Assembly (NCBI GenBank): GCA_014380365.1
Contig: JACMJZ010000025.1
Span: 124,001-188,000 of the forward strand
Direction of reading: 5' to 3'
DNA from: Pyrinomonadaceae bacterium
GTDB lineage: Bacteria; Acidobacteriota; Blastocatellia; Pyrinomonadales; Pyrinomonadaceae
Length of the DNA stretch: 64,000 bases
Both the position numbers and the translations under genes were made by a program. The stretch's first letter is position 1. Each line of letters starts with the position of its first letter. This document shows positions 31,980-40,372 of the stretch, in pieces. The notes beneath the pieces are model-generated. The model was not told the origin of the DNA. It did no database searches and saw only the letters and a program-made list of their open reading frames with translations.

Positions 31980-33950
<1,971 letters not shown>

Positions 33951-34042: not shown

Positions 34043-34079
34043 AAAAAACCGCTCCACACCTAACAAAGGATGGAACGGT
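34043..34079 (-). terminator. riboswitch-linked intrinsic terminator
   Basis: On the minus strand ACCGTTCCATCC pairs with GGTGTGGAGCGGT around a 7-base loop and is followed by TTTTTT. It lies about 10 bases after the TPP aptamer and about 120 bases before thiC, so it is the likely expression platform. Confidence 0.85.
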
Positions 34080-34084
34080 TGCTA

Positions 34085-34176
34085 CCTGCGTTTCTCCCTT
34101 CGACGGTGTTAACCGTATCAGGTTCCAAGGGTCTCACTCGATGTGACTCTCAGCCGCTTCGGCGGCTCCCCCGAAA
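34085..34176 (-). promoter_or_regulatory. TPP (thi-box) riboswitch
   Basis: The minus strand shows the conserved aptamer blocks in order: GGGGGAGCC, GCGGCTGAGAGT, AGACCCTTGGAACCTGAT, CGGTTAACACCG and GAAGGGAGAAACG. These are the CUGAGA and ACCUGA signatures that bind the pyrimidine and pyrophosphate parts of TPP. It precedes thiC and a terminator, so thiamine pyrophosphate should cause early transcription stop. Confidence 0.96.
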
Positions 34177-34235
34177 ACTTTAGTTTGCGACCGCTAGTTT
34201 ACTACATCAGAGCTAATTGCCTATAGCAGCTGAGA

Positions 34236-35900
34236 CTACCTGGTCTTCCCAAAACCGCCGCCGCCGGGAGTTTCAATTCTCACGCGGTCGCCTGCTGCGA
34301 GTTCCCAACTGCCCTTGGAAGCGATGGTCCGTTTGCGCCCGCCTCTTCGAGCGCCGCAGCGCGCGCTTTTGGAAATAATCGCAGCGCTGCCGGGCTTTCC
34401 GTCTTCGCCTCCCGCAAGTCCATAGGGGCCACGCTTTCTTCTATCCGCGAGCAGTGACATGCGTGCCGGCACGAGGGATTCAATTTCACGAATCACACCA
34501 TCGCCGCCTCTCCGTTTTCCTTTTCCTCCTGAGCCACGGCGAATGCTGTATTCGCGAACGCGCAACGGATAGGCATACTCGAGCGCTTCGGCGGGCGTGT
34601 TCAGGCTATTTGTCATGTGCGTATGGACTGCGCTCATGCCGTCAAGCGCCGGCCGCGCGCCCATGCCGCCGGCAACGGTTTCGTAGTAGGAAAACTCGCG
34701 CGCGTTGTCGCCGGGTCGCGAATCGATTCCGCCGATCGTGAGGTTGTTCATCGTTCCCTGGCTGGCGGCGGGAATTCTATTCGGGAGACCTTCGGACAAC
34801 GCTTTGAAGAGAACATCGACAATCCGTTGGGAAGTTTCCACGTTGCCGGCAGCGACTGATGCAGGGTGAACAGCATTAACGATCGTTCCCTCGGGCGCGA
34901 TGACCTCGATCGGCCGCATCAACCCCGCACTCGCAGGAACGTCATTGCCGAGTAGACAGCGGAAAACGTAGCTCACCGCCGAGACAGTGATCGCCGCGAC
35001 CGCATTGATTGGGCCAGCTACCTGAGGCGCGCTGCCAGTGAAGTCAACGCGCGCGCGAGAGCCGTCAATAGTGATTCGCACCCGGATGGGAACCGAGTCG
35101 TCGGTGACCCCGTCGTCGTCCAACACGTCTTCGGCTTCGTATGCCCCGTCGGGAATCGACTCTATTGCACGCCGCATGAGGCGGGCGGCGTATTCAATCA
35201 GATGCGCTGCATATTCAGTTGCTTCCGGGGCGCCACGACGTTCGACGATCTCAAGCAAGCGCACGGCGCCAGTCTTTAGTGAACCAATCTGTGCCTGGAA
35301 ATCGCCGCGACGCTCATCGAGACCGCGAACGTTGGCGAGAATCAGACGCATCAGGTCTTCGTCGAGCTCACCATTTCTCACGAGGCGAACGGGCGGAATG
35401 CACAGACCCTCGCCATAGATGTCAGTAGCTAGTCCCATCGACCCTGGCGTTGCGCCGCCAATGTCGGCATGGTGAGCGCGGTTGGCAACGAAGAAAAATG
35501 GGTGTCGGGTATCGGGTGTTGGGTTTCGGCTGTTCTTCCCCGGCCCCCGGCCCCCGGCCCCCGACACCGAGGTAAAGACTCCCATCACCAACGTCACATC
35601 AGGCAGGTGTGTGCCGCCGGCGAAAGGATCGTTGACAGCCACCACGTCGCCGGGTTTGAGATCAACTTGCCTTAAGACTGCGGCCACAGCCATCGGCATT
35701 GAACCGAGGTGAACGGGCATGTGATCGCCCTGCGCGATCACGTTGCCCAGCGCGTCAAACACGGCGCACGAGTAGTCGCGGCGCTCTTTGATGTTTGGCG
35801 AAAACGCAGTGCGCCTGAGCGCGACACCCATCTCCTCCGCGACGGACGTGTAGAGCGCGCGATAGATTTCCAAGGTGGTTGGATCGAACTGCTTCATCAT
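34236..35900 (-). CDS. hyuB: hydantoinase B/oxoprolinase-type subunit
   Basis: A 554-residue subunit of the HyuB family, which with HyuA carries out ATP-dependent opening of hydantoins or 5-oxoproline, or acts in related carboxylases. Blocks seen: RRTAFSPNIKERRDYSCAVFD, QGDHMPVHLGSMP, NDPFAGGTHLPDVT, FVANRAHHADIGG and the C-terminal IETPGGGGFG. Between VMGVF and FFFVANRAHH an extra GAGGRGPGKNSRNPTPDTRH is read from a GC-rich repeat (35500-35570) that does not break the frame. The upstream hyuA gene is on the same strand, 150 bases away. The substrate cannot be predicted from sequence alone. Confidence 0.9.
   Translation of the reverse strand: MMKQFDPTTLEIYRALYTSVAEEMGVALRRTAFSPNIKERRDYSCAVFDALGNVIAQGDHMPVHLGSMPMAVAAVLRQVDLKPGDVVAVNDPFAGGTHLPDVTLVMGVFTSVSGAGGRGPGKNSRNPTPDTRHPFFFVANRAHHADIGGATPGSMGLATDIYGEGLCIPPVRLVRNGELDEDLMRLILANVRGLDERRGDFQAQIGSLKTGAVRLLEIVERRGAPEATEYAAHLIEYAARLMRRAIESIPDGAYEAEDVLDDDGVTDDSVPIRVRITIDGSRARVDFTGSAPQVAGPINAVAAITVSAVSYVFRCLLGNDVPASAGLMRPIEVIAPEGTIVNAVHPASVAAGNVETSQRIVDVLFKALSEGLPNRIPAASQGTMNNLTIGGIDSRPGDNAREFSYYETVAGGMGARPALDGMSAVHTHMTNSLNTPAEALEYAYPLRVREYSIRRGSGGKGKRRGGDGVIREIESLVPARMSLLADRRKRGPYGLAGGEDGKPGSAAIISKSARCGARRGGRKRTIASKGSWELAAGDRVRIETPGGGGFGKTR
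35500..35570. repeat. CGGGTGTCGGG / CCCCCGGC repeat inside hyuB
   Basis: GGGTGTCGGGTATCGGGTGT and GGGTTTCGG words are followed by three tandem CCCCCGG units and CCCGACACC, which closes a large imperfect hairpin. It is translated in frame as a Gly/Pro/Arg-rich insert. Confidence 0.75.
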
Positions 35901-35954: not shown

Positions 35955-36039
35955 GGGAAGGTGGGCTTGCCCCCGCCTGTTTGCATTATTGAGCAGCATT
36001 CGTTTTCAGCGTTTACTGCGGGGGCAAGCCCGCCTTCCC
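35955..36039. repeat. GGCTTGCCCCCGC inverted repeat
   Basis: GGGAAGGTGGGCTTGCCCCC (from 35955) faces GGGGGCAAGCCCGCCTTCCC (to 36039). It fills the gap between hyuA and hyuB and may fold in the mRNA between the two genes. Confidence 0.85.
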
Positions 36040-36050
36040 AACCTGCAATT

Positions 36051-38129
36051 TTAGGTTACTTGAATAATTAAGTTTCCGTGCTCATCAACTCCAGCGCGCG
36101 TGTCCGGCGGGATGATGGTCGTCGAAGAGTATTCAGTAACAATGCAGGGAGCGTAGAGTCGCATTCCAGGCTTCAGCTCATCTCTTTGATAAACTGCCAC
36201 ACGAAGTTTCTTTCCCTCGAAATTAGCAAACTGAGCCCTCCCTGACGGTCGGGCTACTGCCCCGGTCGAAGCACGCAGCCTTTGCCGGGGAGCCCCGCGC
36301 TTGATCGACAACTTCTCGACAATTCCAGTTGAGCGCAGGCGCGCGCTCACAATCTCCACAGTGTTCAACTCCTGGGCGTAGCCGTAACGTTTCAAATGCG
36401 CCCGGTGAAAAGTCGCATCGATATTGCCCGTCTGTTTGATCTCCAATTCGAACGACTGACCTTTGTAGCGCGCTGCGAGTGAACGCTCGTGCAGCTGTTT
36501 GGATCTGTCGAAACCTTCGCGCGTCAGAGCGACAGCGGCCACCTGCTCCATCAGTTTGAAGTGGCTATTTAGTTTCTCTTTCACTCGTTTTTCCTGCATT
36601 TCAGGCGAACATTCCAACATGACGGTCCGGCTCTGGCTCTTCACCACATCAGCGGCGAGAACGCCGATCGCCGATAGCACTCCGGCAGAGGATGGAACAA
36701 TTACTTTAGGAATGCGCAAGGCTCTGGCCAGTTCAACTGCGTGCAATCCGCCGGCGCCGCCGAACGGTAGCAGGACAAACTCGCGGGGGTCGAAGCCTCG
36801 CTCGACCGAGATGAGCCGAAGCGCACGCTCCATATTCGTATTGGCAATCGACAACACACTCTGTGCCGCTTCAATTGTCGTAACCGGGCGGCGCGCCGCT
36901 TTGGCCAACTCGCGCGCAAGTTGGGACAAAGCTAATCGAGAACGTTCTTCATCAATCGCAAACTCGCCGCCAAGTAATCCAGCGTCGGCGAAGTGGCCCA
37001 GCACGAGATGAGCGTCAGTTACAGTCGGCAAAAGCGCACGACCGTAACAGGCCGGACCGGGGTCAGCCCCTGCCGACTCAGGCCCGACCCTTAGCGAGCC
37101 ACCCTCGTCCAGCCTCGCGATCGAACCGCCACCAGCGCCGACCGTGTGGATGTCCATCACCGGCACGGCCACGGGTATACCAGCAACCGAGGCTTCGTTT
37201 GTGAGCCGCAAGCCATCGCGTCCGCAAAGCGCGACGTCGGTAGACGTGCCACCCATGTCGAAAGTGATTACCCGATCAAAGCCGGCGGCGCGCGCCATTC
37301 GTAGTGCGCCGACAACGCCGCCGGCAGGCCCGGAAAGAATTGTGCGCACCGGCTCCTCGGCCGCGACCGTCGCCGAAATGCTGCCACCCGAAGACTGCAT
37401 CACGCGCAGCCGAGGCGTCTTCGTGGACAGACGACTTAGATAACTACCCATCAAGGGCTGCAGGTAAGCGTTGATTACCACAGTTGAGGTGCGCTCAAAC
37501 TCTCGATACTCGGGCAGGATGCGATAGGAGACTGAAAGAGGAATGTTCAACTTCGCCAGAGCGCGCGCGATTTTCTCCTCATGCGCAGAATCGACGAACG
37601 AAAACAACAAGCAGATCGCTACCGATTCGACCTTCGCTTTTCTTAACCGCTCAACCAGCGCCGCGAGTGCGTTCTCGTTTAGCGGATCGAGTATTTCACC
37701 CGTAGCTGTCACCCGTTCACTTACCCCGAAGCGCAGCTCATCAGGCACAAGCGGAGGCGGCTTCACGGCGTTGAGATTGTAGAGTTCAGGGCGTGCTTGT
37801 CGTCCGATTGCCAGCACGTCTTCAAAGCCTCGCGTGGTCACCAGCGCTGTGCGCGCCCCGCTTCTTTCGAGCAGCGCGTTTGTGCCGACCGTCGTGCCGT
37901 GCACCACTTCAAGGTTTTTGAGCGCCACTCCGGTCTTGTCTGAAACGTGCTTCAGACCGGCGCTGATGGCGAGCGAAGCATCGAGGGGCGTGGAAGCTAG
38001 CTTGAAGATCTCAAGCCGGCCGTTGGATTCGAAAACGAAATCGGTGAAGGTGCCGCCCGTGTCGACGCCAACGCGAACCTTGCGATCTTGCTTAAGTGAT
38101 CGCCGGTTCGTGATTTTGTTTGTGACCAT
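36051..38129 (-). CDS. hyuA: hydantoinase A/oxoprolinase-type subunit
   Basis: A 692-residue ATP-binding subunit of the HyuA family (ASKHA-like fold). Blocks: VRVGVDTGGTFTDFVF near the start, VVHGTTVGTNALLERSGART, SGPAGGVVGALRMA, ITFDMGGTSTDVALC and PFGGAGGLHAVELAR. The late region ends with YAPCIVTEYSSTTIIPPDTR as expected. Just before it, a GAVARPSGRAQF segment is the in-frame translation of a palindromic repeat (36233-36263). ATG 38129 is preferred, giving a short N-terminal tail before the first block. It is the first gene of the hyuA-hyuB pair. Confidence 0.92.
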   Translation of the reverse strand: MVTNKITNRRSLKQDRKVRVGVDTGGTFTDFVFESNGRLEIFKLASTPLDASLAISAGLKHVSDKTGVALKNLEVVHGTTVGTNALLERSGARTALVTTRGFEDVLAIGRQARPELYNLNAVKPPPLVPDELRFGVSERVTATGEILDPLNENALAALVERLRKAKVESVAICLLFSFVDSAHEEKIARALAKLNIPLSVSYRILPEYREFERTSTVVINAYLQPLMGSYLSRLSTKTPRLRVMQSSGGSISATVAAEEPVRTILSGPAGGVVGALRMARAAGFDRVITFDMGGTSTDVALCGRDGLRLTNEASVAGIPVAVPVMDIHTVGAGGGSIARLDEGGSLRVGPESAGADPGPACYGRALLPTVTDAHLVLGHFADAGLLGGEFAIDEERSRLALSQLARELAKAARRPVTTIEAAQSVLSIANTNMERALRLISVERGFDPREFVLLPFGGAGGLHAVELARALRIPKVIVPSSAGVLSAIGVLAADVVKSQSRTVMLECSPEMQEKRVKEKLNSHFKLMEQVAAVALTREGFDRSKQLHERSLAARYKGQSFELEIKQTGNIDATFHRAHLKRYGYAQELNTVEIVSARLRSTGIVEKLSIKRGAPRQRLRASTGAVARPSGRAQFANFEGKKLRVAVYQRDELKPGMRLYAPCIVTEYSSTTIIPPDTRAGVDEHGNLIIQVT
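36233..36263 (-). repeat. AGCCCGACCGTNAGGGAGGGC repeat inside hyuA, copy 2
   Basis: The coding strand carries GCAGTAGCCCGACCGTCAGG plus GAGGGCTC, in frame as AVARPSGRA. It matches the intergenic copies at 28514-28536 and 40573-40649. Confidence 0.88.
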
Positions 38130-38304
38130 GTGATTAGAGTGGAGAACGTAACGCGCGCCTGTTAGTTTGCGGTTTTGCCGATGCATCTACCGAAGCAAAC
38201 CAACAGTTTGCTTTACCGCGCCAATATAGTCACAAGTAATAATGTTGACAAGAAACGCGCAGTAACTAATATAGCCACGAATTTTCAGAAGAGGAGACCC
38301 CCAG

Positions 38305-39039: not shown

Positions 39040-39117
39040 AAACCAGAAGGCAGTAGGCGGAAAGCACAAAGCAGAACGCTTCAACCCGAACAAAACAATT
39101 CGATCGAGCGTATTTTT

Positions 39118-39164
39118 CTGCCTTCTGCCTTCTGCCTTCTGCCTTCTGCCTTCTGCCTTCTGCC
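39118..39164 (-). repeat. CTGCCTT heptamer array
   Basis: Six tandem copies of the 7-base word CTGCCTT plus a partial copy, with an inverted relative at about 39041-39070 (CCAGAAGGCAGTAGGCGG). It sits between two convergent genes and ends just before the oxidoreductase stop codon. Confidence 0.88.
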
Positions 39165-40265: not shown

Positions 40266-40372
40266 CTTTCTTCACTTCTCGCGAGAAGGTTTCGCAGAGA
40301 TCTAACTTGCACGAGCACCAGTCGATTCCGTTATCGTAACCGCCGACTGCCGACTGCCGACTGGAATTGGTG

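Follow-up and report, generated by a model that had tools for sequence, protein, structure and literature searches.

The hyuB gene of a soil bacterium belonging to the Pyrinomonadaceae, the product of which is a hydantoinase-like enzyme, carries within its reading frame a hairpin assembled from tandem 7-nt units, and comparison with relatives established that such arrays are resident at this site and that the repeated word is swapped from lineage to lineage. Arrays are present there in 23 of the 37 loci compared, their two arms agree within a genome, their words differ between sister loci and tend to match those dispersed in the same genome, each word keeps its strand order, and the reading frame is kept. 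The route that we infer for this exchange, and which is probably the correct one, is that a tandem-heptamer hairpin with arms of ~32 nt (4.5 units), resident at a tolerant tip of HyuB, would have been overwritten repeatedly by templated copying from a genome-wide pool.

The window, by which is meant the whole stretch of 64,000 nt that was analysed (G000:C34:124001-188000), forms part of a genome totalling 4,977,406 bases (~4.98 Mb), and the nearest named loci were those of Pyrinomonadaceae and other Blastocatellia within the Acidobacteriota. HyuB matched PF02538 (Hydantoinase_B) with 683.9 bits (E 1.6e-205), and the closest solved structures by sequence match were N-methylhydantoinase 7hk5 and hydantoinase 6yra. 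Relevant features are collected in Table 1.

Table 1. Features in and around the hyuB insert (positions are those of the window).
Feature	Position	Strand	Remarks
TPP riboswitch RF00059, before thiC	34078-34182	minus	72.1 bits
hyuB, Hydantoinase_B/oxoprolinase family	34236-35900	minus	554 aa; frame uninterrupted across insert
Stretch between predicted strands 100-107 and 135-141	35496-35576	minus	AlphaFold; coordinates derived from model numbering
Hairpin arm 2, CCGAAACCCAACACCCGATACCCGACACCC	35500-35529	minus	30 nt
Hairpin loop, AAGAACAG in hyuB sense	35530-35537	minus	8 nt, A-rich
Hairpin arm 1, GGTGTCG then GGGGCCG x3 + GGG in hyuB sense	35538-35568	minus	31 nt
hyuA, partner subunit, upstream of hyuB	36051-38186	minus
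In-frame repeat in HyuA, peptide AVARPSGRAQ	about 36233-36263	minus	about residues 642-652
TTCTGCC x7 array	39116-39164		complementary partner about 90 nt away
GCCGACT x3.1 array	40342-40363		another heptamer word of the window; TRF

Read in hyuB sense (35568-35500), the full insert consists of GGTGTCG GGGGCCG GGGGCCG GGGGCCG GGG, the loop AAGAACAG, and CCG AAACCCA ACACCCG ATACCCG ACACCC. The initial annotation had reported a GC-rich repeat at this point, and its existence was borne out by TRF (a 7-nt array at 35500-35533 and CCCCGGC x3.7 at 35538-35563), by inverted arms at 35501-35523 and 35546-35568 (74% complementary in an ungapped match, 22 nt apart), and by the recurrence of CGGGTGTCGGGT, with 17 occurrences in the 4.98 Mb genome and 0 in the reversed control. 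Equally sound were the descriptions of the repeat as inserted in frame between two blocks that are conserved and that in more distant HyuB proteins are often connected by a short link, and as a family unlike that in the partner subunit: the HyuA peptide AVARPSGRAQ was found, among the HyuA alignments listed, only in this genome's HyuA, the same peptide is present in what is presumably its transketolase, and similar ones are present in relatives. The part of that interpretation which had to be abandoned was the division of the insert into two separate repeats, CGGGTGTCGGG and CCCCCGG, these being instead the paired arms of a single heptamer hairpin, alike in their 7-nt rhythm; the reading of the insert as a single entry fared no better (see below). 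CCCCCGG was also rejected as a genome-wide family of its own, since the genome search that had been proposed for it located the tandem only at the hyuB insert (2 overlapping matches; reversed control 1), making it a local variant of that heptamer, with its phase unchanged.

The arms of the hyuB insert are only moderately self-complementary (score 11; 2 of the 26 other loci score as high against its first half), the folding energy predicted for the single strand is not exceptional for a composition so rich in GC (z 0.02), and no Rfam RNA family was detected at the insert. Counted with one mismatch in the window only, GGGTGTCGGG occurred 8 times as against 4.1 expected, with as many in 6 of 100 shuffles, and is thus not clearly above chance. 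Given the z value of 0.02 and the low own-arm score, the case for an element rests on rhythm, relatives and genome-wide recurrence, and not on energy; a chance origin is ruled out for the heptamer period, a result to which neither the folding energy nor the window-only motif count contributes. Two further repeats were observed nearby: ThiC contains at about 33351-33410 (minus strand, about residues 176-195) a stretch which spans a short palindrome, GCAGACAGGATGTCTGC, and looks like another in-frame repeat, and between hyuB and hyuA (about 35956-36040) lies an inverted repeat, GGGAAGGTGGGCTTGCCCCCGC / GCGGGGGCAAGCCCGCCTTCCC.

In the AlphaFold model of HyuB (mean pLDDT 76, pTM 0.79; numbered without the first Met), residues 113-130, with pLDDT below 50, fall between strands 100-107 and 135-141, from which it would follow that the element extends a predicted beta-hairpin at its tip, where additional residues are probably well tolerated. 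If perfect, a second arm of GGTCAGT, GGTGTCA or GGGGTCA would give an in-frame TGA every 21 nt, and in L032, L036 and L060 the would-be TGA codon reads CGA or AGA. The effect of the insert on HyuB is probably that of a disordered loop selected only for maintenance of frame and freedom from stop codons, there being no sign that HyuB needs it. Since the insert peptide is unlike between species, the segment is not one conserved at the protein level through different codons, the alternative that the initial annotation had envisaged.

Of the 59 genomes, 44 contained a HyuB match. The measured set of 37 loci consisted of 30 aligned at the site (this genome's copy, L020, and 29 relatives) plus seven picked from 80 named species-collection loci, 65 of which were read at the site, the other 15 having no frame (3) or no site match (12). 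The distance between the HyuB anchors was at least 75 nt in 27 of the 37, and 33 to 69 nt in 10. Typed by eye, with this locus included, the arrays, of period 7 or period 8, were accompanied by 8 other inserts and 6 short sites, a distribution with words changing between lineages that runs counter to a one-off entry. Heptamer words at the site comprised GGTGTC(R), GGGGTCA, GGTCAGT, GGGCAGT, GAGCAGT, GGCAGAA, GGCAAAA, GCGGATT, GGCGTCC and GGGAAAA, so at least ten different words are represented among the 37 loci, and octamers were present in four rows. Self-matching of the long inserts reached 0.461 at lag 7 and 0.333 at lag 8, as against 0.26 to 0.31 at the remaining lags between 4 and 12. At the same tip in the Acidobacteriaceae HyuB loci L070 and L071 there is another GC-rich palindrome, of GCGCGGGCG type, an indication that in another class this tip is occupied by repeats of different kinds.

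The agreement of the two arms was assessed over the 27 long inserts by scoring each first half against the second halves of all inserts, taken as reverse complements. The mean self score was 17.1, compared with a permuted mean of 7.9 and a permuted maximum of 11.4 (0 of 10,000 permutations as high), and only L040, L043, L046 and L059 lacked self-complementarity above that with the others. On a HyuB tree built with the insert left out, to which words were assigned by eye, sisters L022 (GGGCAGT) and L023 (GGTCAGT) were joined with support 100/99, L024 (GGTGTC) stood beside the octamer pair L025/L026 (100/100), sisters L046 and L047 differed in word (100/98), and so did sisters L036 (GGTCAGT) and L062 (GCGGATT) (93/89). 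The short sites of L030, L031, L033 and L034 formed, together with L039 (type other), one same-genus clade which, being nested among insert-bearing rows, reads as loss; short sites were also recorded in L041, L048, some Terriglobia and the Chloroflexi read.

Were turnover purely local, with one ancestral HyuB hairpin altered by 7-nt polymerase slippage and quasi-palindrome correction and receiving no input from other loci, then neighbours only one base apart, such as L022 and L023, and the likeness of loop and flank in L025 and L026 would be accommodated, and 7 nt is indeed the unit length that Mrazek, quoted in PMC4692102 and PMC4679880, proposed to be prone to slippage. Such an origin is nevertheless considered unlikely: sisters L036 and L062 have unrelated words at one site, as do this genome and G004 at an intergenic site (C34 106820), strand order is fixed per word across loci, and the words at the HyuB site track the genome pool.

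This last point was addressed by counting, in 59 genomes, dimers of three words (GGCAGAA, GGTGTCR and GGTCAGT) that were chosen after the HyuB site had been read. GGCAGAA dimers were most numerous in the two genomes with that HyuB word (87 in G043 and 52 in G051, the next highest count being 19), and GGTGTCR dimers numbered 67 in G019, 21 in G009 and 19 in this genome, all with that word at HyuB; G012 has 33 of the latter but GGTCAGT at its HyuB site. For genomes with GGTCAGT at HyuB, the corresponding counts were 81 in G032, 45 in G018, only 10 in G017 and only 6 in G012. G007 is rich in GGTCAGT (64 dimers) yet has octamers at HyuB, and G030, G022 and G048 contain 126, 95 and 111 respectively, the HyuB site of these three not having been typed. 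Over the nine genomes whose HyuB site was assigned one of the three words, the matched share was 0.71 as against 0.34 expected, 3 of 1260 labelings being as good, with G012 as a misfit and G017 as a weak fit.

The combined dimer load of the three words was 0 to 97 in 20 genomes with heptamer or octamer HyuB inserts and 0 to 8 in 11 without (p 4e-4), L021/G006 being counted for this purpose as heptamer-bearing and labelled other on the tree. That presence of the insert follows the load of three common words bears on whether the hairpin is retained on account of a role in HyuB or in the hyuB mRNA, be it pausing, folding or regulation, a proposal with which the retention of hairpin shape while the sequence changes and the altered would-be stop codons both agree. 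It is regarded as very improbable, however, in view of that dependence on load, of the same-genus clade without an insert and the other short sites listed above, and of the comparable exchange of words in an unrelated gene and at sites between genes.

Strict arrays were surveyed in 1.6 Mb, made up of 800 kb of this genome, 400 kb of G043 and 200 kb each of G017 and G015, and yielded 94 arrays at period 7 and a total of 20 over the remaining eight periods between 4 and 12, thereby identifying a dispersed 7-nt unit. This genome contributed 49 period-7 arrays in its 800 kb, corresponding to 39 merged elements, mostly intergenic; in 400 kb of the contig of the window there were 23, as against 2 for the other periods between 4 and 12 together. 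No period-7 array was detected in the 200 kb of G015, a genome with a short HyuB site, and 400 kb of G004 contained 35, with 1 array at other periods. An inverted partner was present within 250 nt for 67 of the 94 arrays, compared with 1 of 94 at random places, the other 27 being single. With genes called only roughly, 15 of 73 merged elements, the 39 from this genome included, fell inside ORFs, and the others were distributed as 47 in tandem, 7 in convergent and 4 in divergent gaps. Divergent gaps were depleted: under the same rough calls they held 4 of the 58 non-ORF elements, compared with 24% of positions drawn at random from gaps of 60 nt or more. A Nostoc edaphicum plasmid, read over 250 of its 265 kb, contained 13 period-7 arrays, 7 of them partnered, and 11 at other periods, its pairs having GGCAGAA and GGGTGTC first, as in Acidobacteriota.

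The second arm measured 31-33 nt in 33 of 101 pair rows, a set that leans towards pairs because the elements added to it were picked from listings of three words and were mostly paired, and this peak of arm length corresponds to 4.5 units; detection required one arm of at least 28 nt, which partly shapes the length distribution, although the partner could be much shorter and few were. Taking one row per picked locus left 93 pairs, and of the 161 arms between 20 and 60 nt long, 83 had a length of 3 or 4 modulo 7. Words containing GG or CC (68 elements) and words with neither (25 elements) gave the same median arm of 32 nt, and arms of 29-34 nt accounted for 18 of 50 and 64 of 136 in words without and with these dinucleotides, respectively. 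A G-tract (quadruplex-capable) feature consequently fails for the element set, 25 of the 93 having no GG or CC, even though the hyuB copy itself has G-tracts; and since words without GG or CC share the median arm length, a run of four units cannot be fully accounted for by four G-tracts.

Strand order was fixed per word in 67 of 69 pairs from the 13 word families that were represented by two or more pairs. In the survey alone, where neither the 94 arrays examined for partners nor the 56 pairs had been picked, it held for 36 of 37 pairs in 11 families, and in a larger count (99 pair rows, with some loci repeated and the same lean towards pairs) for 74 of 76, random strands giving a mean of 50 and a maximum of 62 in 20,000. 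In the two exceptions, L203 and a place in C5, the pairing seems to be between arms of adjacent elements. A rule by which the G-rich or the purine-rich strand comes first was rejected, because GTAGTCC and GATTGCC come first and break it. Flank composition, in a count that again leans towards pairs, was A-rich before arm 1 and at the loop start, and T-rich at the loop end and after arm 2. Two unusual arrangements were observed in the course of this work: L203 (G043:C33:48200-48800) has a tRNA-like stretch between two GGCAGAA-type arrays, and in L178 (G019:C429:1600-2500) several hundred nt of unrelated sequence separate paired GGTGTC arms.

The palindromic shape, characteristic arm length and fixed strand order are also features expected of a non-autonomous REP/MITE-type transposon moved whole by an IS200-like (Y1, RAYT) transposase, for which 48 of the 59 genomes have Y1_Tnp matches, G011 and G015, both with the short link, having none; the nearly identical loops of L194 and L198 likewise fit copying of a whole element. 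These two are the exception, loops being mostly unlike within a family, and the arms vary from genome to genome. The empty sites encountered have diverged so far that a MITE-type target site duplication is not legible in them by eye. In G025, the assembly of which is in 390 contigs, a heptamer insert is present without any Y1_Tnp match, and, unlike RAYT-mobilised REP elements, no arrays flank the Y1_Tnp genes here: 0 were found in 59,426 nt around 20 such genes which, with just 3 to 4 expected at the density of this genome, constitutes moderate evidence. Transposition of this kind is accordingly rated improbable.

Word swapping was not confined to HyuB, but was also recorded at another protein-coding site and at two intergenic sites. 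The enzymes concerned in what follows are named from our own reading of their sequences, which we take to be those of a molybdopterin oxidoreductase and a transketolase. At one in-frame site of the former, for which 8 of 20 loci were read and 12 had no site match, the word was GGTGCCG in this genome, GAGTTTC in L304 and GGTCAGA in L306, and no array was present in L309-L313. A sequence like the GGGAAGGTGGGCTTGCCCCCGC / GCGGGGGCAAGCCCGCCTTCCC repeat is contained in the L306 insert. At the transketolase site, read in 24 of 30 loci with 6 lacking a site match, GTCCAAA was present in this genome and in L280, other repeats in several loci, and none in others. Microhomology was apparent here in one case, in which host AGTCCGCAACTC directly borders the GTCCAAA array in L280, and L281, a close relative with no array, already reads AGTCCGCAACTC. 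When contig C34 of this genome was compared with G004, both flanks could be mapped for 5 of 20 and 7 of 29 elements, respectively; of the shared sites, transketolase had the same word, HyuB and the intergenic site at C34 106820 had different words, and the remaining mapped sites had no strict array on the other side. At the second intergenic site (C34 near 108020 compared with G004), reading of the pairs revealed hairpins of different words.

It is the fixed strand order, the typical arm length and the sharing of words by elements with unlike loops that point to copying of the arms from the genome-wide pool. Elements would increase in number within a genome by being copied from a template with strand order preserved, the simplest route being template switching at replication forks, whereby a 3' end that has stalled would, through microhomology of a few bases, copy ~30 nt from an array elsewhere, after which quasi-palindrome correction would match the second arm to the first. 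The HyuB tip, as a tolerant place, could then have its resident hairpin rewritten again and again by whichever words were active in the genome at the time. Transfer in trans is suggested by the pool matching in nine genomes with three words chosen after the site was seen, which records the presumed outcome of copying and not a copying event as such. No enzyme of the RVT_1 type seems to be needed: telomerase-like use of a known reverse transcriptase was rejected because RVT_1 was present in 26 of 59 genomes and had no match in the word-rich G030, G022, G019, G017 and G007, absences to be read in the light of varying assembly completeness (78% for G019, 89% for G007). A quite improbable variant would invoke an undescribed trans-acting writer common to Acidobacteriota, Cyanobacteriota and Xanthomonas, acting in a telomerase-like manner at breaks or stalled forks with a short template that varies with lineage, and producing ~32-nt arms with a fixed strand first; were this so, the HyuB tip would record the word active in each lineage.

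Among known systems, the Rickettsia palindromic elements are in-frame palindromes in protein genes, in families of one sequence each; the present elements are like them in their in-frame insertion in protein genes, and unlike them in having tandem-heptamer arms and different words in different lineages. The Rickettsia elements are mentioned in the discussion of PMC6649704, the subject of which is nematomorph mitochondrial coding palindromes with arms in step, gained and lost, for which its authors propose template switching. These too are inverted repeats within coding genes but they encode conserved protein parts in both arms and are devoid of tandem heptamers (PMC6649704). Heptamers are reported to be the most abundant longer simple-repeat class in most bacterial genomes surveyed (Mrazek 2007, quoted in PMC4679880), and TAACTGA direct repeats occur in Beggiatoaceae, Cyanobacteria and Bacteroidetes (PMC4679880), resembling the present arrays in being dispersed across phyla and in lying in some cases within ORFs. 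In the literature covered, which left most subscription journals outside, there was no established account of how heptamer repeats arise or spread, no match for Pyrinomonadaceae with tandem repeats, and no counterpart to an in-frame resident site with many words, a pool match and an arm length independent of G-tracts.

The kind of element is itself already known, as is evident from the convergent pairs and four units of Xanthomonas and from class replacement in the Nostoc trnL intron. In the latter, the P6b stem of a group I intron is formed by one of two 7-nt motifs, and the classes have been repeatedly replaced (PMC4476775); the likeness to HyuB lies in a heptamer stem swapped for another class at one site, the difference in the present site being protein-coding, with no group I intron, at least ten words and a tendency to match the genome pool. 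In Xanthomonas the pairs are of inverted GGGAATC heptamers, with 70 and 75 cases of two convergent sites in two genomes, and in Nostoc of GGGGA(C/T)T, with only a few pairs in PCC 7120 (Rehm 2015, PMC4692102). Shared with these are the 7-nt unit, a dispersed and mostly intergenic location, convergent pairs, a preference for about four units (the hyuB arms being 31 and 30 nt) and rarity between divergent ORFs. The quadruplex idea put forward there for four units (PMC4692102) does not cover words with neither GG nor CC and an equal median arm length. The present observations suggest that conserved enzymes tolerate disordered, repeatedly rewritten segments that would otherwise be annotated as ordinary protein evolution. 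Unlike the Xanthomonas and Nostoc pairs of PMC4692102, the elements reported here comprise many words per genome, retain the same median arm length in words without GG or CC, and lie in frame in conserved enzymes at a site where the word changes between species, and a fixed codon position with its word swapped between sister species provides an orthologous record of repeat spread and replacement.
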